Below, piece by piece: positions 1 through 64,000 of a stretch of 64,000 nt of DNA. The notes beneath the pieces were generated by a model. It did no database searches. It was not told the origin of the DNA and was given only the letters and a program-made list of their open reading frames with translations. A program made the translations under genes and the position numbers. The number at the start of each line of letters is the position of its first letter. Positions within the stretch are counted from its first letter, which is position 1. Source of the DNA: a bacterium. Lineage in GTDB: Bacteria; UBP15; UBA6099; JAJRTR01. Location: NCBI GenBank assembly GCA_024278215.1, contig JAJRTR010000174.1, positions 1 to 64,000 on the forward strand, read 5' to 3'.

Positions 1-1275
1 AAAAATATCACCGTCAGCGAATACAGTGGCTTTATCAATGACTTTCGCGGTGACGGAACCGCGAGTCATGACCAGTGCTTTCTCCTGGCCGACGATGCCC
101 TGACTCACAGTGAGCTTGCCGCCGCACTCGATGGTCGCCATCTCGATGCAGCCACCGACCTGGATGTCGCCCATTGCTTTAACCGAGAATCCGGAGATGA
201 TGTTGCCCCGGATATGTACGGTGCCGGTGAAATTGATGTTGCCCGTCGAGAAATCCACATCGCCGGGTATTTCGAGAACATTGATAATGTTGACCTTGTT
301 ATTCTGCAACTTGGGTTGGCCGTCACATGCCGCGACAACAAGGAATGGGTCGTTCTTATCAGGTTGGGTGTTGAGTCCGCCGGGCATTGTTACGTCCTTG
401 CCCTGTCTCGGCGTTATCTCTTCGCCATAGACAGTCATACCGGGCACACCCTGTTTTGCCGGGATTTTCCTCGCGACGGGGTCGCCTTTTTTCACGGTCT
501 GGAAGAGGTTGAGTTCTTTAAAGTCCACCTCGCCTTCTTCCGTAATTGAAGGCTTAGGCTTACCGGCATCTGTGTCGAAGAAGTATTCAATCATACCGTC
601 CTCACCGTCAGCCGGTTTCGAGCCTACCGCGATAACGATCGCTTCATTATAAATCTCGTCGCGGATCATTTTTTCAATAATATCTTTTTTTATGCCTGTT
701 TTCATGCCACCGTTTGCAAGGTATTTCATTACATAATCCGGGTCGACAGGGTCGCCACCGAAAGGCGGCGAAAGCGTCATAGTCGCCTCGGTACTGTCTT
801 TCGATACAATGATCTCGAATGAGCCGTCCCGTTTTTCGCCTACCGGGATAAAATCTCGGTAGCGGAACGAAGTCAACATGCTTTCGATCTTATCGAGATC
901 GAGGAAAAAACTCTCCGCGCCGAGTTTCTTTACGGCCTCCATAACGTCCTTCATCTCAGCTTTTCTGCCTTTGCCCATAGGCGGCTCGATCTTGAGCAGG
1001 ACTTCGTCTTCCAGGTCGTTAAGTTTTGCGAGAACCTTGCCGTCCACAGGTTCAGGCTGTGGAGGTGCAATAACAACAGGCGAAGTCGTGCCCTGTGCGA
1101 AAGCATTGTCGACGGCGTCCTGATCCACCTTGTCGATACTCTTGCGGGCAATAATATCCTCAACAAGAGGTTTTGCCTTTTCTTTAATTGCAATTATCTC
1201 TTTTGACAGGGTCATGTGGACACCGGTCGGCAGATATTCGATTTTAAACTTACCATCAAGCGGGTTGGATGACAT
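1..1275 (-). CDS. FapA / DUF342 family protein (3' end cut by window edge)
   Basis: The reverse strand from an ATG at 1275 stays open to base 1, giving 425 visible codons, so the C-terminus is missing. The protein begins MSSNPLDGKFKIEYL, has an alpha/beta N-terminal part, and then the glycine-rich repetitive stretch typical of DUF342/FapA (for example GTVHIRGNIISGFSVKAMGD and GGCIEMATIECGGKLTVSQG), which forms a right-handed beta-helix. Family members are linked to polar flagellar assembly and cell-surface functions, but their biochemical role is poorly defined. The start is supported by AGGAG seven bases upstream. It is divergent from the GGDEF-like gene that follows. Family assignment is secure; a flagellar role is not shown, because no flagellar gene is in the window. 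Confidence 0.9.
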   Translation of the reverse strand, partial: MSSNPLDGKFKIEYLPTGVHMTLSKEIIAIKEKAKPLVEDIIARKSIDKVDQDAVDNAFAQGTTSPVVIAPPQPEPVDGKVLAKLNDLEDEVLLKIEPPMGKGRKAEMKDVMEAVKKLGAESFFLDLDKIESMLTSFRYRDFIPVGEKRDGSFEIIVSKDSTEATMTLSPPFGGDPVDPDYVMKYLANGGMKTGIKKDIIEKMIRDEIYNEAIVIAVGSKPADGEDGMIEYFFDTDAGKPKPSITEEGEVDFKELNLFQTVKKGDPVARKIPAKQGVPGMTVYGEEITPRQGKDVTMPGGLNTQPDKNDPFLVVAACDGQPKLQNNKVNIINVLEIPGDVDFSTGNINFTGTVHIRGNIISGFSVKAMGDIQVGGCIEMATIECGGKLTVSQGIVGQEKALVMTRGSVTAKVIDKATVFADGDIF

Positions 1276-1413
1276 GGAAAGCTCCTGGAATTATTCAGAT
1301 GAATATGGTCTCAATTCAACTCTGGGTTGACACACTGTATTCAATGTTTAATATTAAAGCAATCGAATAGCACTGTCAACCAAACCCGAATCAACGGGGC
1401 GGAAATATCACCT

Positions 1414-2508
1414 GTGGAAAAGCGCATAAACAAAAAGGAGTTGATATACACCTTTTTCAGAGCCCTGCTGGGGTTCATATATATGCAGTTGGTTTTTTTC
1501 GGTTATATCGGCAATGTATCCACACGCTTCGAGACTGCGTTGATGGTGATGTCGGCAACGCTGCTGTTGATTTTCGTATCTCTGCTGATGCCGGACACCT
1601 CGAAGGCGGGCAGATGGTCGCTGTTCGTCATAGATGTGCTGCTTGTGGGATTCGGGTTCTTCTTTCTCGGCGGAATAAACGGGTACTTCGTTATTCTGCT
1701 GCCGTTGCTCGCAGTATCGGCAGGGCCGAGATTCGGGACAAATACTTCGCTTGCGCTCGCCGTGGTAATCGGGCTCATTCTTGTAGTTATGGGCTACATA
1801 GCATCAGGCGGCGATGCCGGTTGGGCGCCGTTATACAGGGCCGGATTCTGGGCCGTCGTCACTTTCCTCGGATGGTTGCTGCATCTGCATCTTACCGGCG
1901 CGACCCAGGAGCAGAAGTACAGGATAATGTACCTCGACATTTCGCAGGAAAACGAGAAGAATATGGAAAGGATAGCGACTCTCGAAAAGAAAATGCAGTC
2001 GCATACGATTGTCGATCCTGTGACGGGCCTGAAGAATTTCAGGTATTTCAGAGCGAGAATCGAAGAGGAGATAGCACGCGCCAGAAGGCATAAATATGAT
2101 TTCAGCCTCTGCCATATAGAAATCGAACGCAAGAAGGAGTTCCTTGAGTTGTATTCCGAAGAAGACTGGCGGCGGCTCGTGGCTCGTGTGGCGGAAAAGA
2201 TGCGCGACCTTGTACGCGACACAGACCTGCTCGGCAGATACAGTGACAACCAGTTCCTTGCGCTTTTCCCACAGGCGAACTCGCGGCAGTCGTTGATCCC
2301 GACAATGAGGATAAAAAAAACTATTGAAGAGGCCGAACTGCCACCGGACAAACGGTTCACACTGCAACTCGGATTCGGAATATCGTGTTTTCCGGATGAC
2401 GTCGAGGAAGTCGGCGGACTGCTGAGCCTGGCCTCGGCCGCACTCAAAAAGTCGAAGGAAAGAGGCGCCGGAAAAGTTACTCTGGCCGTTTCTCTATTCA
2501 GAAAATGA
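1414..2508 (+). CDS. Membrane protein with degenerate GGDEF domain
   Basis: About 364 residues from a GTG start at 1414; an in-frame ATG lies at 1327, but the extra residues look non-coding (MTHCIQCLILKQSNS). The N-terminal half has five to six hydrophobic segments (for example LMVMSATLLLIFVSLLM and SLALAVVIGLILVVMGYIAS). A short coiled coil follows, then a GGDEF-fold domain beginning VDPVTGLKNFRYFRARIEEE. The signature GG[DE]EF loop reads RYSDNQF, and the usual metal-binding D-x-D near the domain start reads IEIERKKEF. Diguanylate cyclase activity is therefore unlikely; a c-di-GMP receptor or purely structural role is possible. The stop is 17 bases before the DUF2723 gene, so the two are probably co-transcribed. 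Confidence 0.8.
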   Translation: MEKRINKKELIYTFFRALLGFIYMQLVFFGYIGNVSTRFETALMVMSATLLLIFVSLLMPDTSKAGRWSLFVIDVLLVGFGFFFLGGINGYFVILLPLLAVSAGPRFGTNTSLALAVVIGLILVVMGYIASGGDAGWAPLYRAGFWAVVTFLGWLLHLHLTGATQEQKYRIMYLDISQENEKNMERIATLEKKMQSHTIVDPVTGLKNFRYFRARIEEEIARARRHKYDFSLCHIEIERKKEFLELYSEEDWRRLVARVAEKMRDLVRDTDLLGRYSDNQFLALFPQANSRQSLIPTMRIKKTIEEAELPPDKRFTLQLGFGISCFPDDVEEVGGLLSLASAALKKSKERGAGKVTLAVSLFRK

Positions 2509-2525
2509 ACGAACAACGGTGATTG

Positions 2526-5231
2526 ATGAGATTAAAACTCTCCAGATTTGACATAGCGGCATCGACAACAATATTCCTTTTTTTCTGGGCCGTATACCTT
2601 TATACACTTGCGCCGGGGATACTTTTCGAGGATACGGGCGAGTTCGCGCTCAGCCTCTTTTCTCTGGGTGTTTCGCATCCACCGGGATATCCTCTGTACA
2701 CGTTGCTGGGCCCGCTTTTCAATTTCCTGCCGTTTGCATCACCCGCTTTCTGCGCCAACATAATTTCCGCGTTCCTCGGAGCGCTCGGCATAAGTGTGCT
2801 CTACTTCGCGTGCCGCAGCTTCGGCTTCTCGAGCACCGCCGCCGCGCCCGCCGCTGTCGCGTGCGGTGTTTCCCTTACTATCTGGTCACAGTCGATTATC
2901 AGCGAAGTATATTCACTGAAACTTCTGCTCGATGCCCTGATGCTGTATGCGATAGGCAGAATGGCGGCGGGCCGAACACGATGGATAGCGGCGGGCGGGC
3001 TTATCGCGGCTCTTACCGCTGCAAACCACTATACAAGCCTTGTCGCTTTTCTGCCTGTATGGCTGCTTTTCGCCGTAACGACGGCAAAGACAAAAGCCGT
3101 AAGGATCATCGGCACGATGGCAACTGCCGCGCTTGCGCTCGTCTCGTTGACAATCCTGTATGCGAGTATCCCCCTGCGCGCCGCCGCCGGCCCGGCATTC
3201 AACTGGCAGAATCCCGCTACCGTGCAGACGTTTTTCAAACACATCGAAAGAACCCAGTATGAGCATTGGGAACAACAGCTCAGTTTCCATCTGCCGACAG
3301 TGCTAAAATATGTTGCCGGTTTTTTTAATCACCTGCCGATGGAATTCAATGTCATTCTTCTATTTATAGCGATATTCGGATTTGCGCTACTGCTGTCCTC
3401 GCGTCTGCGCGAGTCTGCCGCTTTGTTGTGGCTGTTTCTCGTTCAGAGTGTGGGAGTGATGCTGATAGTCAGGTTCCACTACAACGAACTCGGACTTTCC
3501 GTTGTCAGGGTGTTTTATATCGGCGCATATATAGCCGTCGCGATTATGATAGCAGCGGGCATCGACGGCATTATAAACAGGCTCGATGCGTTTCGCACAA
3601 AAACACCGGGCGTTATAGTTTCGATCGCGGCGCTTGTAGCCGCTGTAGCGCCGCTGCATGGAAATTTCATCGCGAACAATATCAGCAAAGACAACAGGAC
3701 ATCCGTGTTTGCGCGGGACATCCTGCGGTTCCTGCCCCGCGACGCTGTGCTTTATCTGAAAGGATCACATTTCACGATTCCAATCATGTACACGATGGAT
3801 ACCGGCAATCTCAGGAGCGACATCCTGCAGATCGATATGACGGGCAACCTGTTGCAGGAAACAATAAAAGATATTTATGGAAAGAATTACAACCAGAGAG
3901 AAATTGAAGCTGTAATAGATGAAGTTTACAGGAAATTCGAGAATAAGCGGATTCAGGCTTTCACGACACCGAGGTTGTTTGAAGGTCTCCCCGCAGATTT
4001 CAAGCTGCGGGGGCCTTTCTATTACCTTGCGGACGAGCCATCGTGCAATTTCGTGGGTTGGAATTCAGACGCTTATGGATATAAGCCCGGCGGCGACAAG
4101 AACAGAGACTACGAAACAAGGCAACTCGGGGCGTTTTTCCAGGCCCGTAAAGCAGAGTGCGACTTTATGAACGGCGACCATAAAAGCGCGTTCGACGAAC
4201 TTGATAAAGCGGTTGCTTCGATGCCCGGATCGGCAAACACCATGTTGTTTGCAGGGCAACTTGCAGACAGATATGGATTCAGGAATATCGCGGCTATGTA
4301 TTACAACAAGGCTCTCGCACTTGATCCGACATTCACAGACGCTCTGCTGCAACTCGGGCAGATGATGATCGAAGTGCAGGGCAGGGAAACACCGGAAAAC
4401 AGGAATTTCGTATCTGCCGAAGAATACTTCAAAAAGGCGCTCGCTGTTTCGCCAGGCAATGTGCAGGCGAGACTCGCCCTCGCCAACATCGCGGTGCAAA
4501 ACCGTGACTTCGCTACTGCCGAGGATTACTACAAAAAACTACTCGAAGAATTTCCGGAGAATATCCTGATATATAACAATCTCGCAAATTTATACATAAA
4601 GACAAGGCGTATAAACGAAGCCTCAAAACTCTATGAAACAGCTCTGGCTTACGATCCGGATTCCGCTCTTACAAACCTTAATTACGGTAGTTTCCTTATA
4701 GATACGGGACGCACGGACAGAGCATTTGAATTGCTGCGCAAGCACATCGCCATAATGCCGCAATCCAGCTATGGTCACTACAATCTCGGCCTTGCATTTC
4801 ATAAAATCGGTGACTATAATAACTCGGTTATCCACTACCGCAAGGCGGTGGAAATCGAGCCGAAACTGGCTCAGGCTTGGACAAATCTTATAAGCGTGCT
4901 GCTTGAGATGGACAACCTGCGTGAAGCTGCGGCGACAGCTGACAAATCGCCCGAACCAGCGCTTCACTGGCAGGGAATCGTCAAACAACTGGTTTCCGCC
5001 GACATGTCCGACAGGGCTCTCAATTTGTTGAAAACGAGCCACGGACCGGTTGAAGCATGGGCAGCGTTTATTATACTTAATATACAAAAAGGGCGGATTA
5101 ACGAGGCGGGCGCAGCAATAAATGCCATGGAACCGTTGTACGGAGACAACCACGCTGATCTTCTCAAGGAGCTGAAGGACAAGCTTGCAGAAGCACGTTC
5201 GGCCCTGGAACCTGTAGGAGGAAGCAAGTAA
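2526..5231 (+). CDS. DUF2723 membrane protein fused to TPR repeats
   Basis: About 901 residues from ATG 2526; a TTG directly before it is an alternative start. The N-terminal ~380 residues are a polytopic DUF2723 domain, with the diagnostic EDTGEFALSLFSLGVSHPPG-type motif after the first membrane segment and about ten further hydrophobic helices. DUF2723 resembles lipid-linked-sugar glycosyltransferases of the GT-C fold; the acidic residues in EDTGE fit the catalytic position of that fold. A soluble domain (~400-540) follows, then at least seven TPR units from ~545 to 880, such as IYNNLANLYIKTRRINEASK and AQAWTNLISVLLEMDNLREA. The substrate is unknown; surface glycan or protein glycosylation is an inference. 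It is closely followed by fmdB. Confidence 0.85.
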   Translation: MRLKLSRFDIAASTTIFLFFWAVYLYTLAPGILFEDTGEFALSLFSLGVSHPPGYPLYTLLGPLFNFLPFASPAFCANIISAFLGALGISVLYFACRSFGFSSTAAAPAAVACGVSLTIWSQSIISEVYSLKLLLDALMLYAIGRMAAGRTRWIAAGGLIAALTAANHYTSLVAFLPVWLLFAVTTAKTKAVRIIGTMATAALALVSLTILYASIPLRAAAGPAFNWQNPATVQTFFKHIERTQYEHWEQQLSFHLPTVLKYVAGFFNHLPMEFNVILLFIAIFGFALLLSSRLRESAALLWLFLVQSVGVMLIVRFHYNELGLSVVRVFYIGAYIAVAIMIAAGIDGIINRLDAFRTKTPGVIVSIAALVAAVAPLHGNFIANNISKDNRTSVFARDILRFLPRDAVLYLKGSHFTIPIMYTMDTGNLRSDILQIDMTGNLLQETIKDIYGKNYNQREIEAVIDEVYRKFENKRIQAFTTPRLFEGLPADFKLRGPFYYLADEPSCNFVGWNSDAYGYKPGGDKNRDYETRQLGAFFQARKAECDFMNGDHKSAFDELDKAVASMPGSANTMLFAGQLADRYGFRNIAAMYYNKALALDPTFTDALLQLGQMMIEVQGRETPENRNFVSAEEYFKKALAVSPGNVQARLALANIAVQNRDFATAEDYYKKLLEEFPENILIYNNLANLYIKTRRINEASKLYETALAYDPDSALTNLNYGSFLIDTGRTDRAFELLRKHIAIMPQSSYGHYNLGLAFHKIGDYNNSVIHYRKAVEIEPKLAQAWTNLISVLLEMDNLREAAATADKSPEPALHWQGIVKQLVSADMSDRALNLLKTSHGPVEAWAAFIILNIQKGRINEAGAAINAMEPLYGDNHADLLKELKDKLAEARSALEPVGGSK

Positions 5232-33709: not shown

Positions 33710-34927
33710 TTGGCCGAAGAAAGCAAAACACCATTGCTTGACGAGCTGGAAAAAGGTCCGTGGCCGAGCTTCGTAACAGACATTAAGATGGCTGCGAAGA
33801 GAAAACCGGAAACAATGGATCTTCTGAATCAGCTTGAACTGTCCTATGAAGAGAAAATAGGACACTGGAAACACGGCGGTATCGTAGGAGTCATGGGATA
33901 TGGCGGAGGAGTCATCGGAAGGTATTCCGACAGGCCCGACCTGTTCCCCGGTGTGAAGGATTTCCACACACTGCGAGTAAACATGCCGACCGGGTGGTTT
34001 TATACCACCAAAGCGCTCAGGACGATTTGTGATATCTGGGACAAACGAGGAAGCGGAATGACAAACTTCCACGGTTCCACAGGCGACATCATTCTCCTGG
34101 GAACAGACACAGATCAACTGCAGCCTTTATTCGACGATCTGTCGGAAGCGGGATTCGATCTCGGCGGTTCCGGCTCGGACCTCAGGACACCGAGCGCATG
34201 TTGCGGCCCGGCCAGGTGTGAGTGGGCATGTTTCGACAATCTTCAGATGTGTTACGACATGACCATGGAATACCAGATGGAACTGCACAGGCCGATGTGG
34301 CCCTACAAGTTCAAATTCAAATTCTCCGGCTGCCCCAATGATTGTGTTGCCGCTGTCGCACGCGCCGACATGTCCTTTATCGGCACCTGGAGAGACGACA
34401 TCCAGGTCAACGACGACGAGATCGCCGCATATGCTGAAGGCGGACTCGACATTCAGGCCGATGTCGCCGACAATTGCCCGACAAAGTGCATCAGCTACGA
34501 TGCGTCGAGCAAAAAGATCAAGATCGACAACAGCAACTGTGTAAGGTGCATGCACTGCATCAACGTTATGCCCAAAGCGCTCAAACCCGGCAAAGAACGC
34601 GGTTGCACACTGATGGCCGGCGCGAAGGCCCCGATCCTTATGGGTGCCCGCCTTTCGTCAGTTATCGTTCCATTCGTACCAAAAGAAAAACTCGAACCGC
34701 CCTACGAATGGTTCAAAGATTTTATCGACAGGCTCTGGGAATGGTGGGACGAAAATGGAAAGTTCCGCGAAAGATTCGGAGAACTGCTCGACAGAGTAGG
34801 AATGAGGGTTTTCCTGAAAGCTATGGACATGGAACCCATTCCGCAGATGATCGAGGCGCCGAGAACAAATCCGTTCGTGTTCTGGTGGCCTGAAGATGTT
34901 GAAACTTCTGGAAAGGAGGCAAAATAA
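33710..34927 (+). CDS. dsrA: Dissimilatory sulfite reductase alpha subunit
   Basis: 405 residues. TTG at 33710 is chosen over GTG 33701 because CGGAGG sits at proper distance and because the product then starts [20 protein letters not shown], as in other DsrA. Conserved parts include [20 protein letters not shown], the siroheme/4Fe-4S cysteines in [12 protein letters not shown] and [13 protein letters not shown], and an inserted ferredoxin domain ([16 protein letters not shown]). With DsrB it forms the alpha2beta2 enzyme that reduces sulfite and delivers sulfur to DsrC. The stop overlaps the dsrB ATG by one base. Confidence 0.97.
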
Positions 34928-54551: not shown

Positions 54552-57500
54552 ATGCAAAAATCTAATTTGAAACATTTTGTTGTTGCAATTTTCATGATCT
54601 GTGCAATCTCTGTGCATGCATCGGCTTCCGCCGATTTTACGTCGAGTTGGACAAGTATCGAAACGAATGAAAGCACGTGCTCGGCGTGGGGCGATTATGA
54701 CGGGGACGGCGACCTGGACGTTGTAGTCGGCGACGCAAATACCGGCACTATGCTTTACAGCAACGCGGGCGGCGCGTCTTTCAGTATCGTGTGGCAGTCG
54801 GAGGACGCCGACCTTGTCGTCTCACTTGCCTGGGGCGATTACGACCGTGACGGCGACCTGGATATACTTGTCGGCAACAATCCCGGAAACAACAGGGTTT
54901 ACAGCAACAGCGGCGGCGGAGTTTTCACGCTCGCCTGGACTTCCAGCAGTGTCAGGAGAACAGTCAGGGCGGAGTGGGGAGATGCGGACGCCGACGGTGA
55001 CCTGGACTTTCTCGCGGGCGTCTACGATGAACCTGCAAGGGCTTTCAGGAACACGGGCGCGAGCCAATTTGAATTGATATGGAGTTCGCAGGAATCCGAT
55101 CCGACTACATGTATCGACTGGGCCGACGCCGATGCGGACGGCGACCTCGATTTTGTAAAAAGTGCGAACAGCGCCGTCGACCGGGTGTACCGGAATGAAG
55201 GCGGTTCGGCCTACACTCTTATGTGGTCTTCCGCAAGATCGGATAAGGCGTATTTCACCGAATGGAGCGATTACGACGGCGACGGCGACCTTGATTTCGC
55301 GGTCGCCAATTACGATGAAAAAGACCGTGTCTACAAAAACTCCGGCAACTGGTATTTCGATATGGTCTGGGCTTCGGCGACCGACTCTCCCTCAATCGGA
55401 CTGGCATGGGGCGACTACGACGGCGATGGTGACAGCGATTTGCTCTTCGGCAACTACGCTGCAAGCAATAATGTTGTTGCTTACGCCGGTTCCGATAATT
55501 TCACTGATTCATGGTCTTCGCCGGAAGCCGATTATACATACCAGGTGACATGGGCCGACTACGACGGCGACGGCGATCTCGACCACTTCGTTTCAAACAT
55601 CAGCAGCCAGTCAAACCGACTCTACAAGAATAATCTTTCCATATCCAATTCACCGCCTGCGGCCCCGGTGATTACCGGACAGCCGGACGGTCTGCCCGGA
55701 CTCATCACGCTTAGCTGGTCCGCCGCATCCGACGACATCACACCCGCTGTGGACCTCACTTACCAGGTGCGCGTGGGCACTTGCTCTGGGTGTGGCGGCA
55801 TAATATCGGGCGCTTTCGCGCCTCCTTTCGGCAATTCGCGACAGACGGAATTCCATAAACTTAATATCCAGGACGACGGTACGTATTACTGGTCAGTGGC
55901 CGCCGTCGATAGCGCTGGGTTCTCGACCTCGACATGGTATGTCGAGGACTCGTTCACAATATCTGCTCCGAGCGGAACTCCGTACCAGTCTATATGGACC
56001 GGTCCGTCGTCTGACCAGACAACAGCTATTGCGACCGCCGACTACGACGACGACGGTGACCTCGATTTTATTGCCGCCAATGACTCTGAAGTCAATACAG
56101 TGTACAGGTATAACGGTAACAATACTTTCACCGCCGTGTGGTCGTCTCCGGAAACAGACGCCACGAACGACGCGGCATGGGCCGACTACGACGGGGACGG
56201 CGACCTCGACCATGCTGTCGCCGACAACGGCGCGAACCGCGTCTACTCCAAAACGGACGATTACAACTTCAGCCTCGTCTGGTCATCGACGGAAACCTCC
56301 AACTCACTCGCGACAGCCTGGGGAGACTACGACCGCGACGGCGATCTCGATTTATTTGCGGGCAACGTCGGCGCGAACCATCTGTACAGAAACAATTCGG
56401 ACGACACATTTACTCTCGTCTGGACTTCGACAGAAACAGACACGACTTCGGGCGCGGTATGGCTCGACGCCGACGCCGACGGCGTTCCGGACATTTTCTG
56501 CGCCTCCGACGGCACTTCCGACAGGCTCTACTTGAACAACGGTGACGACACTTTCACTCTCGCATGGTCATCGACTCAGACAGACGCGACAAAAGACGCG
56601 GCGGCGGCGGATTATGACGGGGACGGACTCGTGGACATTTCCGCGCCTGCGGTCGGCGCGACACAAAACAGGCTCTACTCAAATAACGGCGACGGCACTT
56701 TCACTCTCGCATGGTCATCGACTCAGACAGATGAAACATATTCGTGCACATGGGGCGATTACGACGGTGACGGCGACTGGGACCTGCTTGCCGGCAACAG
56801 CGGCGTCAACAGGGTATACGCGGGCGACGGCGCGGGCGGCTTCACGCTCGAGTGGTCATCCGCTGAAGGCGAAGTCACTTACGCTGCCGCATGGGGCGAT
56901 GTGGACGGCGACGGCGACCTTGATATAATCTCCGGTAACAACACTTCGGCCAACAGGCTATATCTTTACACCTCCGATATCTCGAACCTCAACCCGGCCG
57001 CGCCCGTTTTAGTCGCCGGGAGCAACGCGACACTTTCCGGCGCTACCGTTTCCGTTACTTTCAACTGGAACGCTGCCGTCGACGACACGACCGCCCCTGT
57101 CTCGATGATGTACCATCTGCGTGCCGGCACATGTTCCGGTTGCGACGACATCGTTTCCGGAGCTTACGCTTCACCAGTTCCCAATGTCGGCGCGACAACT
57201 TCCATTTCCATCGTTTTCGATGCTACCGGCACATACTACTGGTCTGTTGCTGCCATCGACAACACTTCTCTAAGTGCGTCATCATGGAGTTCGGAGGATA
57301 GCTTCGAGATTATCGAGCCCACGGGAACACAAACGCCGTTCGAGTCGATATGGACCGGAACGGATATCAACCTGACTCGAGATGCCGCGTGGGGCGACTA
57401 CGACGGCGACGGCGATCTTGATTTCTTTGCAGCGAACTATACGCAGGGAAATTTCGTATACCGCAACGACGGCAGCGCTACTTTCAATAAAGTTTACGAA

Positions 57501-60500
57501 GACAACCTTTTCTCATATACAACATCCGGTGCGTGGGGTGACTACGACGGCGACGGCGATCTCGATTTGCTGTTCTCAAACTATAATGAAAGCAATTACG
57601 TTTTTAAAAACACGGGAAGTGACGATTTCGTGTCGGCATGGTCCACAACGCAGGCGAATTCAACAAACGACGCCGAGTGGGGCGATATGGACGGCGACGG
57701 CGATCTCGATTTCATCGCGGGCAATGACGGCCAGTCGATTTTAGTTTTCAGCAACAACGGATCGGGCGGTTTCACGTATGGCTGGGGCTCGACGGAAACG
57801 AATAATACGAGTTCTATTTCAGTGGTCGATTTCGATAAGGACGGTGACCTCGATTTCATCGCGGTGAACAACGGACAGTCCGATATTATCTACGATAACG
57901 GCGGAGGCGGCACTTTCAGCGTCGCCTGGACGTCTGCTGAAACAGACAGCGGCAGCGGCGGCGCGTGGGGTGACTATGACGGCGACGGCGACTACGACAT
58001 AGCCGTAGCCAACAACACGCAGTCGAATCGCGTTTACTCGAACGCCGGGGCCGCAAACTTCACATCGGTCTGGACATCCACGGAGGCGGATGCGTCGCAC
58101 ACTGCCGCGTGGGGCGACTACGACGGCGACGGCGATCTCGACCTGCTTTTCGGCAACTATTATACGACTTCCGACACCGACAGAGTCTACACCAACGCAG
58201 GCGGCGACAATTTCCCGCTGGGCTGGTCGGCGACAAATCAGGAATACACGCGCGCGGCGGCCTGGGGCGATTACGACGGCGACGGCGATCTCGATTTCAT
58301 CGCGGCCAACGAAGACGGCTCCGACAGGATTTACAGAAACAATCTTTCCATCTCCAACACCGCTCCGCCCGCTCCCACACTGACGTTAATTGACGACGGT
58401 GACCCGGGTACGGTCGTTTTTCAATGGGCTGCCACTTCCGATGACATCACCCCCGACAGCCTGCTTGCATTCCAGTTGCGCGTCGGCACGTGCACGGGCT
58501 GCGACGACATTATAAGCGGCGAATTCGCGCCTCCTTTTGTCAACATGGGCGCTACCGGCTCCTACCCGATGATACTCGGCAACGGCGATTATTACTGGTC
58601 CATTGCTTCTGTCGACACCACAGGTTTCTCTGTTTCCTCGTGGAGCACAGAAGACGACTTTCACCTCGAACATATACCGGCAGTCCCATTCGAGTCCACA
58701 TGGCAAAGCACCGAAAGCAACAGGACGGCGGCACTCGCATTGGGCGATTTCGACGGCGACAGCGACCTCGACCACATTGCTGCCGACTCCGATTCGATTC
58801 GCCTTTACCGCAACACAGGATCGTATTCTTTCACGCTCGCCTGGTCATCGTCGTCGATGACAAACAACATGGATGCCGCGTGGGGCGACTACGACGGCGA
58901 CGGCGATCTCGATTTCGCTGTTTCCACCGGCTCGGGCGGTTACGTGTCGGTCTATGAGCAGACAACTTACGCCGCCTTTTCATCCGTATGGGCTTCGTCT
59001 CAAACAGATAAAACATACAGTGTCGCGTGGGCCGACTGCGACGCGGACGGCGACCTCGACCTTCTAACCGCCAATCTCGCGGACGGCTCGACTGGTTCGA
59101 ACAACAGGGTATACCGTAACGAAGGCCGCGGCGACTTTGTCGTCAACTGGACATCTGCCGAGGCCGACATAACTTATGATGCCGCGTGGGGCGATTACGA
59201 TGGCGACGGCTACAGGGATATTGTCGCGGGAAACGACGGCGCGAACAGGATTTACCGAAATGTCGCATGTGACTACTTCACCATCGTGTGGACTTCCGTC
59301 GAAAGCGACAGGACGACCGGCGTCGCGTGGATGGACTACGACGGCGACGGCGACCTTGATTTCGCCGCGGGCAGCGCGGACGGCAACGACCGTGTTTATA
59401 ATAACGACGGCGCGGGCGGTTTCTCCGCCGTGTGGACTTCCACCGCCACATCGACGACTTCATCAGTCGCATGGGGCGACTACAACGCCGACGGCTACCC
59501 CGATCTCGCTTCAGTCAACAACAGTTCTATCGCCGATTCGGAACATGTTTACGGCAACAACGGCGACGATACCTTTTCGACAGCGTGGAACTCGCCTCTC
59601 GATGAGGAATCGCAGGACGTCGCATGGGGCGACATCGACGGCGACGGCGACCTCGACCTGCTCATAGCTTCCGGCGGCGACACATCGGCGGATGCGAATA
59701 TCCTGTATGTCAATTACGTCGAGCCGGCGAACAACGCACCTACTACTCCGTCCGTAACCGTGGTTCCAGACGGTTTCACCGGCTATGTCGACCTGCAATG
59801 GACTGCTTCAACTGATGATGTTACTCCGTCTGATGAAATCCGCTACATCGTCCGGGCCGGTACTTGCTCCGGTTGCAACGACATCATTTCCGGCCTCTAT
59901 TCGCCGCCTCTGACCAATGCCGGTACGGCAACTAGTTACAGGGTACATATCGCCGGTGCGGATACATATTACTGGCAGGTTAAGGCGATAGATATGGCAG
60001 GCTTCCGCGAATCAGGCTGGTCGAACGCCGATGATTTCGTCTTGACAGACCGTTTCTCATCCGCATGGACCGGAAGCGCATATTACAATATTGAAGATGT
60101 CGCGTGGGGCGACTACGACGGCGACGGCGACCTCGACATAGCTGCGGCGGTAAACGGTACGCCCAACCTTGTTATCGAAAACAGCGGTGGCGGCAGTTTT
60201 TCGACGGTTTGGTCTTCTTCCGAAAGCGATTACACACGCTCCGCCGCCTGGGGCGACGCGGACAACGACGGCGATCTCGATATTCTCGTGGGCAACACCG
60301 ATTCGGCTTCGGGCGGCGACCAGAACCGCGTCTATTCCAACAACGGCGACGGCACGTTTACTGTCACATGGTCCACCTTTGAAATGAACCGTACTTACGA
60401 TGCTGTGTTTACAGACTGCGACGCGGACGGCGACCTCGATATTGTCGCCGCTAATGAATATGAAAACATAATTTACACCAATAATGGCGGTAGTTCGTTC

Positions 60501-63500
60501 ACTTCAAGTTCATTGTCTTCACACCAGGAGCGGACACGGGCGCTATCTCCCGCCGACTTCGATGCCGACGGCGACTTCGACTTGCTCGAAGGCAACTACG
60601 GCGCGCCCAACAGGGTATTCAGAAACGACGGCTCGGGCAATTTCTCCGAACTGTGGGCCTCTTCCGGCAGTGAATATACCTCTGCTGTCGCATGGGCCGA
60701 CACAGACGGCGACGGCGACCTCGACGCTTTCTTCGGCAACAGTTACGTGGGTGCACTGAACTATATTAATGTTAATGACGGCGCGGGTTCGTTCTCCGCC
60801 TCATGGACATCGCGCGACGCCGACGAAACTTATGACGCCGCGTTCGGCGACACAGACGGCGACGGGGACCTCGACCTGATTACCGCCAACAGCGATTCTG
60901 ATTCCACCCGCGATAATTACAGGCTCATCCGCGTTTACTCGAATTCCGGCGGCAACTTGTTCGCGGCATCGGCAAACATGGGAGCCGGCGATTATGCCGT
61001 TGCTGTCGCGCTCGGCGACTATGACGGCGACGGCGACCTCGATATCCTCGAAGGTTCGAGCGACGGCGGCGACGACATGCCTGTTCGTGTGTATATGAAT
61101 AACATGGACCCGTCGAATGCCGCTCCATCCGCGCCGTCTGTTATCAAAACAGACAACCAGGTTCTCTCAGCCGCTACTTCTCCGATCTCCATAGCGTGGT
61201 CCGCACCGTCCGACGACATCACAGTCACCGCGCTCCTGTCATATCAGTTACGTATCGGCACATGCCCCGGCTGCAGCGATGTTATGTCGGGCGCTTTCGC
61301 GCCTCCCGGCGGCAATATCGGCGCGACGACTGCTGTCAATATCAACATGTCCGATTCTGGCACGTACTACTGGTCGGTCGCGGCGGTGGACAACACAGGC
61401 TTCGCGACAGGCGCATGGTCGGACGAGGAATTTTTCGCCGTTTCACTTCCCCTGTTCGATACAGGTTGGACGAGTCCCGAAGGTGGAACATGCAGGGATG
61501 CCGCGGCAGGTGACTTCGACGGCGACGGCGACCTCGATATTGCATCGAGCTTCGACGCGCAGAATATGGTTTATGAGAATAACGGCAGTGGCTCTTTCAG
61601 CGACGCATGGACATCCGCCGAGTCTGAAAACACGATGGAAGTCGCATGGGGCGACTACGACAACGACGGCGACCCGGACATACTTGTCGCCTCCGCAAAC
61701 GGGCCTGCGAGGATATATAAAAACACTGGCGGCACCTTCTCTACTGCATGGTCATCCATTATGAGCGTGCAGGGCGGCGGCGTCTCATGGGCCGACCTCG
61801 ACAACGATGGCGACCTCGACTTCGCCGCCTCGAGCTACGGCATAAACAATCTCGTCTACAGAAACGACGGCGGCGATTCTTTCACCCTTTCATGGCTTTC
61901 CAGCGACACAGACAACACAACTGACGTCGAATGCGCCGACTTCGACAATGACGGCGACAGCGACATTGCCGCTGCGAATGAGTCCGGACCTGTGAAGCTT
62001 TACGCAAACGACGGCGCGGGCAGTTTCATTGCTGTCTGGACATCCTCCGACACCGGCTACACAAGTGGGATTTCGACCGGAGATTACGACGGTGACGGCA
62101 ATTTGGATATGCTCACGGTGGCTGGTTCTTCATACTACAACAGAGTGTACCGGGGCGGTGGCGGCGGCACATTCACAGCCGTGTGGACCGCTGGAGAGGA
62201 CGGTCCGTTTTCCGGCGGCGCGTGGGGCGACTACGACGCGGACGGCGACCTCGATTTCTTCGTCTCCTACAGCGGCACAGACAGTCGTGGCAGCCACGTT
62301 TATCGCAATACAGGTAGTGATTCCTTCAACCTCGTGTGGGCGTCGCTGAATGATGACGCGTCGTACAGCGCCGCCTTCGGCGATTTCGACGGCGACGGCA
62401 ATATCGATCTGCTCTCGGCGAATACCGGCGTAAGAACATGGACGAATATGTCCACCGTATCGAACAGCGCGCCCGCGCAGCCGACTGTAACAGCCGTCGG
62501 CGATCAGGAATTCCACATCTCGGCCACTCCTGCCGTAACACTGTCATGGACCGCGCCCTCCGACGACTACACACCCTCGAATTCACTCACATACCAGGTG
62601 CGAGTCGGCACTTGTTCGGGATGTAGCGACATCGTCTCCGACACTTTCGTGCCGCCGTGGGGCAACGCCGGCCCTTCGACGTCATACACTTTCAACGCGA
62701 CCGCATCCGGCACTTATTACTGGAGTGTATCCGCCGTGGACACTTCGGGGTTCCTCGTGGGCGCGTCGAGCGCGGAGGATGTCTTCGATGTTTCATTTTC
62801 GATGCTCGGCACAAGGACACCGTTCGATTACTCGTGGTACGGCAGCGCGTCCGACTACAGCAGCGGCAGCGCCTGGGGCGACTACGACGCCGACGGCGAC
62901 CTCGACATCCTGATTTCAGACGCCGGCGCGTCCGCCGGCAACAGGATATACTCGAACGACGGCGGCAACACCTTCACGCTCGCGTGGACGGCGACTGAAT
63001 GGAACACAACGGAAGCCGCCGCCTGGGCTGACTACGACGGTGACGGCGACCTCGACGCTGTTTTCGTTTCAGGCGGTTCGGGCGAGCCGAATTATGTTTA
63101 CCGAAATGTTGGCGCGGGCGGCTTCGTAGTCGGTTGGACTTCGACGGAAACCGAGCCTTCGCAGGCCGTTGCCATCGGCGATTTCGACGGCGATGGCGAT
63201 CTTGATATCTTCGTCGGAAATAACAGCGCGTCTGTTCCTGACCGCGTTTATAAAAATGTTTCCACAGGTTTCACCACCGCCTGGACTTCGTCTTCATACT
63301 ACACGACGCGCGCCGTGGATATGGCAGACTACAACCTCGACGGTCGCCCCGACTTACTGCTCGGCAACAGCGGCTCTGCCATGGAACCGATTGTCATATA
63401 TTCGAACAAAGGCGGCGAGTGTTTCACCGAAGCCTGGACTTCGTCCGAGCAGGAATACACTTCCGCCGTCGAGTGGGGCGACTACGACGGCGACGGCGAC

Positions 63501-64000
63501 CTCGACATCGCCGCCGGCAACTGGATGGGCGACGAAACTATCAGGATATACGCCAACATCAGCGGTAATTACTCTTCCGTCTGGACCCGCTCCAGCGTCG
63601 ACAGAACCGTCGATGTCGCCTGGGGCGACTACGACGGCGATGGCGACCTCGATCTGCTCGCCGGCAACGCGGAAGTCAACTATAAATATAATCGCATCTT
63701 CACAAACGACGGCGGCGATTCTTTCTCTCTCTACTGGTCTTCTGCCGAAGACGAGAGTACCGGTGATGTCGACTGGGCGGATTACGACAACGACGGCGAC
63801 CTTGACTTCTTCGCTGCAAACAACGGTATCGACAGGGTTTATACGAACAACGACAACCCGTCGAACACCCCCCCGTCCGCGCCGGTCGTCAATGCTGTGC
63901 CGGACGGCTATACCGGTCGAATATCCTTCTCGTGGTCGGCGGCTTCGGACGACATAACAGGCGGCAGCGCACTTAACTACCAGGTGCGCATCGGCACATG
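54552..64000 (+). CDS. Giant secreted FG-GAP/VCBS multi-propeller protein (3' end cut)
   Basis: One open frame of at least 3,149 codons to the window edge. The start MQKSNLKHFVVAIFMICAIS at 54552 is a signal peptide, with likely cleavage after HASASA. The rest is repetitive: 49 FG-GAP/VCBS repeats of ~45 residues, each with a Ca-binding loop such as WGDYDGDGDLD and an N-R-V-Y-N-N-G-x-G-x-F strand, are arranged as seven groups of exactly seven, and each group is followed by a fibronectin-III-like domain with a CxxC. Seven repeats match a seven-bladed beta-propeller of integrin-alpha type. Surface adhesion, matrix or enzymatic scaffolding are possibilities; no catalytic domain is visible. No strong Shine-Dalgarno was seen. 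Confidence 0.93.
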   Translation, partial: MQKSNLKHFVVAIFMICAISVHASASADFTSSWTSIETNESTCSAWGDYDGDGDLDVVVGDANTGTMLYSNAGGASFSIVWQSEDADLVVSLAWGDYDRDGDLDILVGNNPGNNRVYSNSGGGVFTLAWTSSSVRRTVRAEWGDADADGDLDFLAGVYDEPARAFRNTGASQFELIWSSQESDPTTCIDWADADADGDLDFVKSANSAVDRVYRNEGGSAYTLMWSSARSDKAYFTEWSDYDGDGDLDFAVANYDEKDRVYKNSGNWYFDMVWASATDSPSIGLAWGDYDGDGDSDLLFGNYAASNNVVAYAGSDNFTDSWSSPEADYTYQVTWADYDGDGDLDHFVSNISSQSNRLYKNNLSISNSPPAAPVITGQPDGLPGLITLSWSAASDDITPAVDLTYQVRVGTCSGCGGIISGAFAPPFGNSRQTEFHKLNIQDDGTYYWSVAAVDSAGFSTSTWYVEDSFTISAPSGTPYQSIWTGPSSDQTTAIATADYDDDGDLDFIAANDSEVNTVYRYNGNNTFTAVWSSPETDATNDAAWADYDGDGDLDHAVADNGANRVYSKTDDYNFSLVWSSTETSNSLATAWGDYDRDGDLDLFAGNVGANHLYRNNSDDTFTLVWTSTETDTTSGAVWLDADADGVPDIFCASDGTSDRLYLNNGDDTFTLAWSSTQTDATKDAAAADYDGDGLVDISAPAVGATQNRLYSNNGDGTFTLAWSSTQTDETYSCTWGDYDGDGDWDLLAGNSGVNRVYAGDGAGGFTLEWSSAEGEVTYAAAWGDVDGDGDLDIISGNNTSANRLYLYTSDISNLNPAAPVLVAGSNATLSGATVSVTFNWNAAVDDTTAPVSMMYHLRAGTCSGCDDIVSGAYASPVPNVGATTSISIVFDATGTYYWSVAAIDNTSLSASSWSSEDSFEIIEPTGTQTPFESIWTGTDINLTRDAAWGDYDGDGDLDFFAANYTQGNFVYRNDGSATFNKVYEDNLFSYTTSGAWGDYDGDGDLDLLFSNYNESNYVFKNTGSDDFVSAWSTTQANSTNDAEWGDMDGDGDLDFIAGNDGQSILVFSNNGSGGFTYGWGSTETNNTSSISVVDFDKDGDLDFIAVNNGQSDIIYDNGGGGTFSVAWTSAETDSGSGGAWGDYDGDGDYDIAVANNTQSNRVYSNAGAANFTSVWTSTEADASHTAAWGDYDGDGDLDLLFGNYYTTSDTDRVYTNAGGDNFPLGWSATNQEYTRAAAWGDYDGDGDLDFIAANEDGSDRIYRNNLSISNTAPPAPTLTLIDDGDPGTVVFQWAATSDDITPDSLLAFQLRVGTCTGCDDIISGEFAPPFVNMGATGSYPMILGNGDYYWSIASVDTTGFSVSSWSTEDDFHLEHIPAVPFESTWQSTESNRTAALALGDFDGDSDLDHIAADSDSIRLYRNTGSYSFTLAWSSSSMTNNMDAAWGDYDGDGDLDFAVSTGSGGYVSVYEQTTYAAFSSVWASSQTDKTYSVAWADCDADGDLDLLTANLADGSTGSNNRVYRNEGRGDFVVNWTSAEADITYDAAWGDYDGDGYRDIVAGNDGANRIYRNVACDYFTIVWTSVESDRTTGVAWMDYDGDGDLDFAAGSADGNDRVYNNDGAGGFSAVWTSTATSTTSSVAWGDYNADGYPDLASVNNSSIADSEHVYGNNGDDTFSTAWNSPLDEESQDVAWGDIDGDGDLDLLIASGGDTSADANILYVNYVEPANNAPTTPSVTVVPDGFTGYVDLQWTASTDDVTPSDEIRYIVRAGTCSGCNDIISGLYSPPLTNAGTATSYRVHIAGADTYYWQVKAIDMAGFRESGWSNADDFVLTDRFSSAWTGSAYYNIEDVAWGDYDGDGDLDIAAAVNGTPNLVIENSGGGSFSTVWSSSESDYTRSAAWGDADNDGDLDILVGNTDSASGGDQNRVYSNNGDGTFTVTWSTFEMNRTYDAVFTDCDADGDLDIVAANEYENIIYTNNGGSSFTSSSLSSHQERTRALSPADFDADGDFDLLEGNYGAPNRVFRNDGSGNFSELWASSGSEYTSAVAWADTDGDGDLDAFFGNSYVGALNYINVNDGAGSFSASWTSRDADETYDAAFGDTDGDGDLDLITANSDSDSTRDNYRLIRVYSNSGGNLFAASANMGAGDYAVAVALGDYDGDGDLDILEGSSDGGDDMPVRVYMNNMDPSNAAPSAPSVIKTDNQVLSAATSPISIAWSAPSDDITVTALLSYQLRIGTCPGCSDVMSGAFAPPGGNIGATTAVNINMSDSGTYYWSVAAVDNTGFATGAWSDEEFFAVSLPLFDTGWTSPEGGTCRDAAAGDFDGDGDLDIASSFDAQNMVYENNGSGSFSDAWTSAESENTMEVAWGDYDNDGDPDILVASANGPARIYKNTGGTFSTAWSSIMSVQGGGVSWADLDNDGDLDFAASSYGINNLVYRNDGGDSFTLSWLSSDTDNTTDVECADFDNDGDSDIAAANESGPVKLYANDGAGSFIAVWTSSDTGYTSGISTGDYDGDGNLDMLTVAGSSYYNRVYRGGGGGTFTAVWTAGEDGPFSGGAWGDYDADGDLDFFVSYSGTDSRGSHVYRNTGSDSFNLVWASLNDDASYSAAFGDFDGDGNIDLLSANTGVRTWTNMSTVSNSAPAQPTVTAVGDQEFHISATPAVTLSWTAPSDDYTPSNSLTYQVRVGTCSGCSDIVSDTFVPPWGNAGPSTSYTFNATASGTYYWSVSAVDTSGFLVGASSAEDVFDVSFSMLGTRTPFDYSWYGSASDYSSGSAWGDYDADGDLDILISDAGASAGNRIYSNDGGNTFTLAWTATEWNTTEAAAWADYDGDGDLDAVFVSGGSGEPNYVYRNVGAGGFVVGWTSTETEPSQAVAIGDFDGDGDLDIFVGNNSASVPDRVYKNVSTGFTTAWTSSSYYTTRAVDMADYNLDGRPDLLLGNSGSAMEPIVIYSNKGGECFTEAWTSSEQEYTSAVEWGDYDGDGDLDIAAGNWMGDETIRIYANISGNYSSVWTRSSVDRTVDVAWGDYDGDGDLDLLAGNAEVNYKYNRIFTNDGGDSFSLYWSSAEDESTGDVDWADYDNDGDLDFFAANNGIDRVYTNNDNPSNTPPSAPVVNAVPDGYTGRISFSWSAASDDITGGSALNYQVRIGT
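54640..64000 (+). repeat. Higher-order repeat of ~1.37 kb, seven modules
   Basis: The fibronectin-III-like parts start near 55648, 56985, 58356, 59730, 61117, 62463 and 63864, so the module period is 1,337 to 1,401 bases (mean ~1,369). Inside each module the sequence GGCGACTACGACGGCGACGG and close variants recur about every 140 bases. Modules differ enough in sequence that they are old, not recent tandem copies. Confidence 0.9.

Follow-up and report, generated by a model that had tools for sequence, protein, structure and literature searches.

A giant exported-looking chain of eight predicted seven-bladed FG-GAP propellers in a dsr-bearing bacterium

The window analysed here, a stretch of 64,000 bases, is the first part (C151:1-64000) of a contig of 108,291 bases, one of 207 in a 4.55 Mb genome. 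At its right-hand end begins a giant gene on the plus strand, running from 54552 to 66059 (L021:552-12059) and encoding an acidic protein of 3,835 aa (407 kDa, pI 4.05, 12.9% Asp), in agreement with the size of over 300 kDa that a sequence-only reading of the window had predicted. The gene is cut by the window end, its inside part (54552..64000, plus strand) forming an open reading frame of 3,149 codons with no stop (54552-63998); the contig beyond the window (C151:64001-66059) supplies the remainder of linker 7, propeller 8, linker 8 and a C-terminal domain. The protein opens with a stretch read by eye as a signal peptide (MQKSNLKHFVVAIFMICAISVHASASA, 54552..54632, plus strand; hydropathy peak at residues 6-11), which is its only hydrophobic segment; beyond this signal region the top 19-residue hydropathy is 1.25, and no transmembrane segment was detected. 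Since dsrA lies in the same window (33737-34921), the organism is dsr-bearing, as had been noted, and no link between the dsr genes and the propeller gene was seen. The downstream neighbours of the propeller gene include a gene for a GFO/IDH/MocA-Zn-dehydrogenase fusion and one of the asparagine-synthase family, which are compatible with a surface polysaccharide locus without proving one.

Following the N-terminus, the protein alternates strictly between propellers of seven FG-GAP/Ca-loop repeats, as counted both by loops and by a blade HMM, and Ig/Fn3-like linkers, all on the plus strand. Propeller 1 (54636..55634) is followed by linker 1 (55635..55970, with the motif CSGC), propeller 2 (55971..56969) by linker 2 (56970..57326, CSGC), propeller 3 (57327..58343) by linker 3 (58344..58676, CTGC) and propeller 4 (58677..59714) by linker 4 (59715..60041, CSGC). 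The same order continues with propeller 5 (60042..61103) and linker 5 (61104..61442, CPGC), propeller 6 (61443..62447) and linker 6 (62448..62810, CSGC), and propeller 7 (62811..63851) with the first part of linker 7 (63852..64000, CSAC), the rest of which lies beyond the window. Successive modules start 449-467 residues apart, in keeping with the period of ~456 residues proposed earlier. Each repeat consists, in order, of an F-x-x-x-W strand, two strands that flank the Ca-loop and an R-V-Y-x-N strand.

The count of seven repeats in each of the seven modules visible in the window stands, with loops and blade HMM in agreement, although not by the route first given: the strict motif D-x-D-x-D-G-D-x-D occurs 41 times in the window and not 49, and admitting the usual substitutions (e.g., DADADGVPD, DYNADGYPD, DYDGDGLVD) brings the total to 49 loops, exactly seven per module. 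Over the whole gene, the blade HMM finds 56 blades, seven in each of eight modules, every one scoring at least 39.8 bits, so that the "at least seven" propellers of the sequence-only reading become eight modules. This HMM was trained on these same blades; the Pfam search is independent of them and places both families proposed for the repeats far above cut-off in residues 1-3149, PF13517 at 794.8 bits (cut-off 26.9) in 46 stretches and PF01839 at 272.8 bits (cut-off 22.1). From their agreement with the Ca-loop consensus, the loops are putative calcium-binding sites.

The linker behind each propeller comprises ~110 residues with the conserved elements N..P..P, W.A..DD.T, R.GTC.GC and G.YYWSV..D. 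It had been described as an Fn3-like closing domain; a beta-sandwich after every propeller is indeed indicated, but the linkers stay below the cut-off of Pfam fn3 (PF00041), with no match at E 10 in three linkers scanned and a sub-threshold E of 0.018 in 1 of 12 aligned linkers. The nearest sub-threshold Pfam model is Ig_Rha78A_N, the Ig domain of a rhamnosidase (9/12 members, best 8e-4), and the sole PDB profile match is a chitinase Fn3 domain at E 0.24. We therefore call the linker Ig/Fn3-like rather than Fn3, while its fold may still be of Fn3/Ig type. All eight linkers of the propeller-chain protein carry a Cys-x-x-Cys pair, whose putative disulphide probably stiffens the sandwich. The pair is missing in a relative from the same order (genome G002) and displaced in the paralogues; as the G002 relative lacks it, the family does not depend on the disulphide.

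We modelled module 3 together with linker 3 using AlphaFold2 and an alignment made of the remaining six modules in the window (mean pLDDT 79.8, pTM 0.74). The model places 28 strands across module residues 5-338, with pLDDT mostly 80-95, and after the repeats a separate six-strand sandwich of lower confidence (pLDDT about 45-70). Its top solved match is murine CRTAC1 (PDB 9etn; Z 36.1 over 370 residues, 2.9 A, 20% identity; Foldseek/VIA), ahead of aldos-2-ulose dehydratase (Z 34.5), LGI1 (34.5) and integrin alpha-IIb (32.4), and the sequence profile of the modules likewise matches CRTAC1 best (1.3e-16), with integrin alpha-5 at 4e-5. The strand count and the matches to closed seven-bladed rings (Z 32-36) agree with a ring of seven four-stranded blades, as predicted for module 3 only. 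If the integrin topology applies, the F-x-x-x-W strand that opens a module should be the one completing blade 7, a Velcro closure. A two-module AlphaFold2 model from a three-row alignment reached a pLDDT of 38.5, too low to show how adjacent beads are oriented. Taken together, the repeat counts, the strand number and the matches to CRTAC1 and integrin alpha-IIb uphold the bead chain of seven-bladed propellers that had been proposed, with the structure predicted for one module.

Following the contig downstream revealed, besides the eighth module, a C-terminal domain of 175 residues (residues 3661-3835; L021:11532-12056; C151:65532-66056) built from two related G-W-N-L blocks, for which profile searches returned no relatives in Pfam, NCBIfam or PDB. 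The domain recurs in ~20 places in this genome and closes 15 of the 18 large, mostly exported ORFs checked, ending 0-9 residues before the stop; the other 3 carry a copy near the N-terminus, behind a signal-like segment. By profile, each of the order's seven genomes has 7-24 copies, and 18 of ~110 more distant genomes give matches. It looks like a common terminal module of exported proteins; that it anchors them, as the sequence-only reading expected of the C-terminus, is our guess, against which the 3 N-terminal copies count. Elsewhere on the same contig, an exported-looking 1,476-aa ORF (C151:93457-97884; L169/L170) has the domain close to the N-terminus, preceded by a signal-like segment.

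The strict seven of this gene has to be set against other propeller arrays. We collected 187 propeller arrays from this genome, from 80 loci of many phyla found by module alignment and from further genomes; seven blades were detected in 160/187, a share that is not an unbiased survey since a seven-blade query favours arrays of at least seven, while 3 arrays held fourteen and most of the others, counted at the limit of detection, 6 or 8. Judged from detected repeats, this shows seven blades to be the rule of the whole propeller family and not peculiar to this gene; highly repetitive VCBS propellers, by contrast, are reported to differ in blade number (PMC9218822). What varies is the number of rings. 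Of the three main paralogues in the same genome, that on C201 counts six seven-repeat modules, that on C43 counts four, and that on C20 shows a module of seven and a second of at least six that is cut at a contig end. The six-propeller paralogue (L022:3934-14223, minus strand) is split by an in-frame TAG in its third linker domain, which reflects either an error in sequencing or a nonsense mutation of recent date. One protein of G002, from the same order as the present genome, has 2,073 aa and carries two propellers (50% identity to module 3) together with the G-W-N-L C-terminal domain, and a second has at least four propellers; no module match came from the order's five remaining genomes. Among 110 propeller-bearing ORFs in the sample, 82 have a single propeller and 12 have two, and only one exceeds eight, a 7,591-aa ORF from a Bacteroidia genome with 13 x 7 repeats (G060, C31:30.4-61.4 kb, L164/L165). 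This ORF ends in TAA and is followed in frame by a 2,743-aa ORF with four more propellers and a sorting-domain-like C-terminus. The eight-propeller chain is rare, not unique: an unusually long case of a known type.

Among the closest known systems are the bacterial integrin-type FG-GAP seven-bladed propellers of a 2011 study, some with two tandem sets of seven (PMC3192720). As here, each of the seven repeats in those propellers has a single DxDxDG loop, and the bacterial sequences of the study have no transmembrane helix; a cytoplasmic role was assumed there, whereas the present protein has a signal-like segment, eight sets, an Ig/Fn3-like sandwich after each and an unnamed C-terminal domain. 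The suggestion that the arrangement was undescribed thus fails for tandem seven-bladed propellers and holds for length, in that we found no paper on a giant FG-GAP chain this long in the open-access literature. CRTAC1 (cartilage acidic protein 1), the best match by both fold and sequence profile, has a single propeller in 9etn; its companion UnbV_ASPIC domain found no match in the residues scanned here, 1-3149 and 3617-3835. The integrin alpha head shares the FG-GAP seven-bladed propeller (Z about 32), but the present protein has no transmembrane segment, a Ca-loop in every blade and eight propellers instead of one. The Vibrio cholerae matrix adhesins Bap1 and RbmC are likewise exported and have FG-GAP/VCBS-type propellers; unlike the chain, each has one eight-bladed propeller with beta-prism domains. 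The Bacteroidia genome G060 (L164-L168), too, strings seven-repeat propellers into chains, of 13, 7, 4 and 3, in which linkers separate the propellers, but its modules are just 31-40% identical and several of its C-termini resemble, by eye, type IX secretion sorting domains. Distinctive here are the chain length, the in-register duplication of modules and the unnamed C-terminal domain.

How such a protein might work can be sketched from these features, and we lean towards an exported, acidic bead chain of closed seven-bladed integrin/CRTAC1-type propellers that binds glycans or matrix multivalently and is fixed by its C-terminus to the surface or matrix. The very acidic 3,835-aa protein would be exported via its signal-like N-terminus, and seven FG-GAP repeats at a time, spanning ~350 residues, would fold into a closed propeller of the integrin/CRTAC1 type. 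Each blade would bear one putative calcium loop, and the F-x-x-x-W strand at the N-terminus of a module would presumably close its ring. Behind every propeller would stand one Ig/Fn3-like sandwich, which a disulphide within the Cys-x-x-Cys pair probably stiffens, giving eight beads in a row that end in the 175-residue domain. Repeated along an extracellular chain of this length, the propellers may offer multivalent, calcium-stabilised binding of glycans or matrix polysaccharide, with the C-terminal domain perhaps holding the chain at the cell surface or in the matrix. Carbohydrate or protein binding is common among VCBS/FG-GAP propellers (PMC9218822), and those of Bap1/RbmC directly bind matrix polysaccharide (PMC10102183), although the eight-bladed Bap1 propeller can serve as a functional analogy only.

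Alternatively, the chain could be mainly a structural spacer or surface coat, an S-layer- or stalk-like fibre whose propellers supply length and stiffness and bind nothing specific. Its strict modularity and high acidity would suit such a fibre, and copy number that varies among paralogues and relatives (8, 6, 4, 2, 13) around a constant module is what would be expected if length matters. Propellers are, however, costly compared with plain Ig/Fn3 repeats, and 82 of the 110 ORFs carry a single one, for which a spacer role makes little sense; we consider this reading rather unlikely. Still more doubtful is a role as a substrate-binding scaffold for extracellular polysaccharide-degrading enzymes. 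The sub-threshold relatives of the linker, Ig_Rha78A_N of a rhamnosidase and the chitinase Fn3 domain (E 0.24), hint in this direction, as does the carbohydrate recognition typical of VCBS-like propellers (PMC9218822), but scans of residues 1-3149 and 3617-3835 found no catalytic domain, and glycoside hydrolases are absent from the four neighbouring downstream ORFs scanned. That the repeat number is an assembly artefact is highly improbable and already largely refuted: giant repetitive genes are prone to mis-assembly, and the C201 paralogue is interrupted by its in-frame TAG, but the modules are just 42-47% identical as protein and the blades ~39%, no DNA tandem repeats were detected and 3,835 codons run without frameshift or stop, so that short reads could hardly have collapsed or multiplied modules.

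The similarity among blades bears on how the chain grew. When modules are compared, blades that hold the same position resemble each other more closely (0.405) than after shuffling (0.393), none of 2000 within-module shuffles reaching the observed value, and the in-register comparison of modules is the best of seven rotations. Duplication of whole propellers fits both results, which are consistent with the earlier proposal that selection acts on the whole propeller as a unit, though part of the signal may reflect position-specific constraint. Recent blade-by-blade amplification inside a module was considered and rejected, blades within one module being no more alike (0.393) than random pairs (0.393). 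The module tree has weak support, with seven modules in one loosely supported group and module 5 elsewhere, so that the order of duplications cannot be read from it.

More broadly, and tentatively, chains of 4-13+ seven-bladed rings might form a recurrent class of giant extracellular bead-strings in poorly sampled phyla, grown by whole-propeller duplication and, in this order, displayed by an unnamed C-terminal surface domain that serves the whole secretome. This domain is the most open lead, and may mark a surface-display route for the secreted proteins of the order. The gene itself provides a clear natural case of a toroidal domain copied whole and in register, in which the blades are fixed at seven while the rings vary (8, 6, 4, 2, 13), and it makes testable why propellers stay seven-bladed and what a long chain of them binds.
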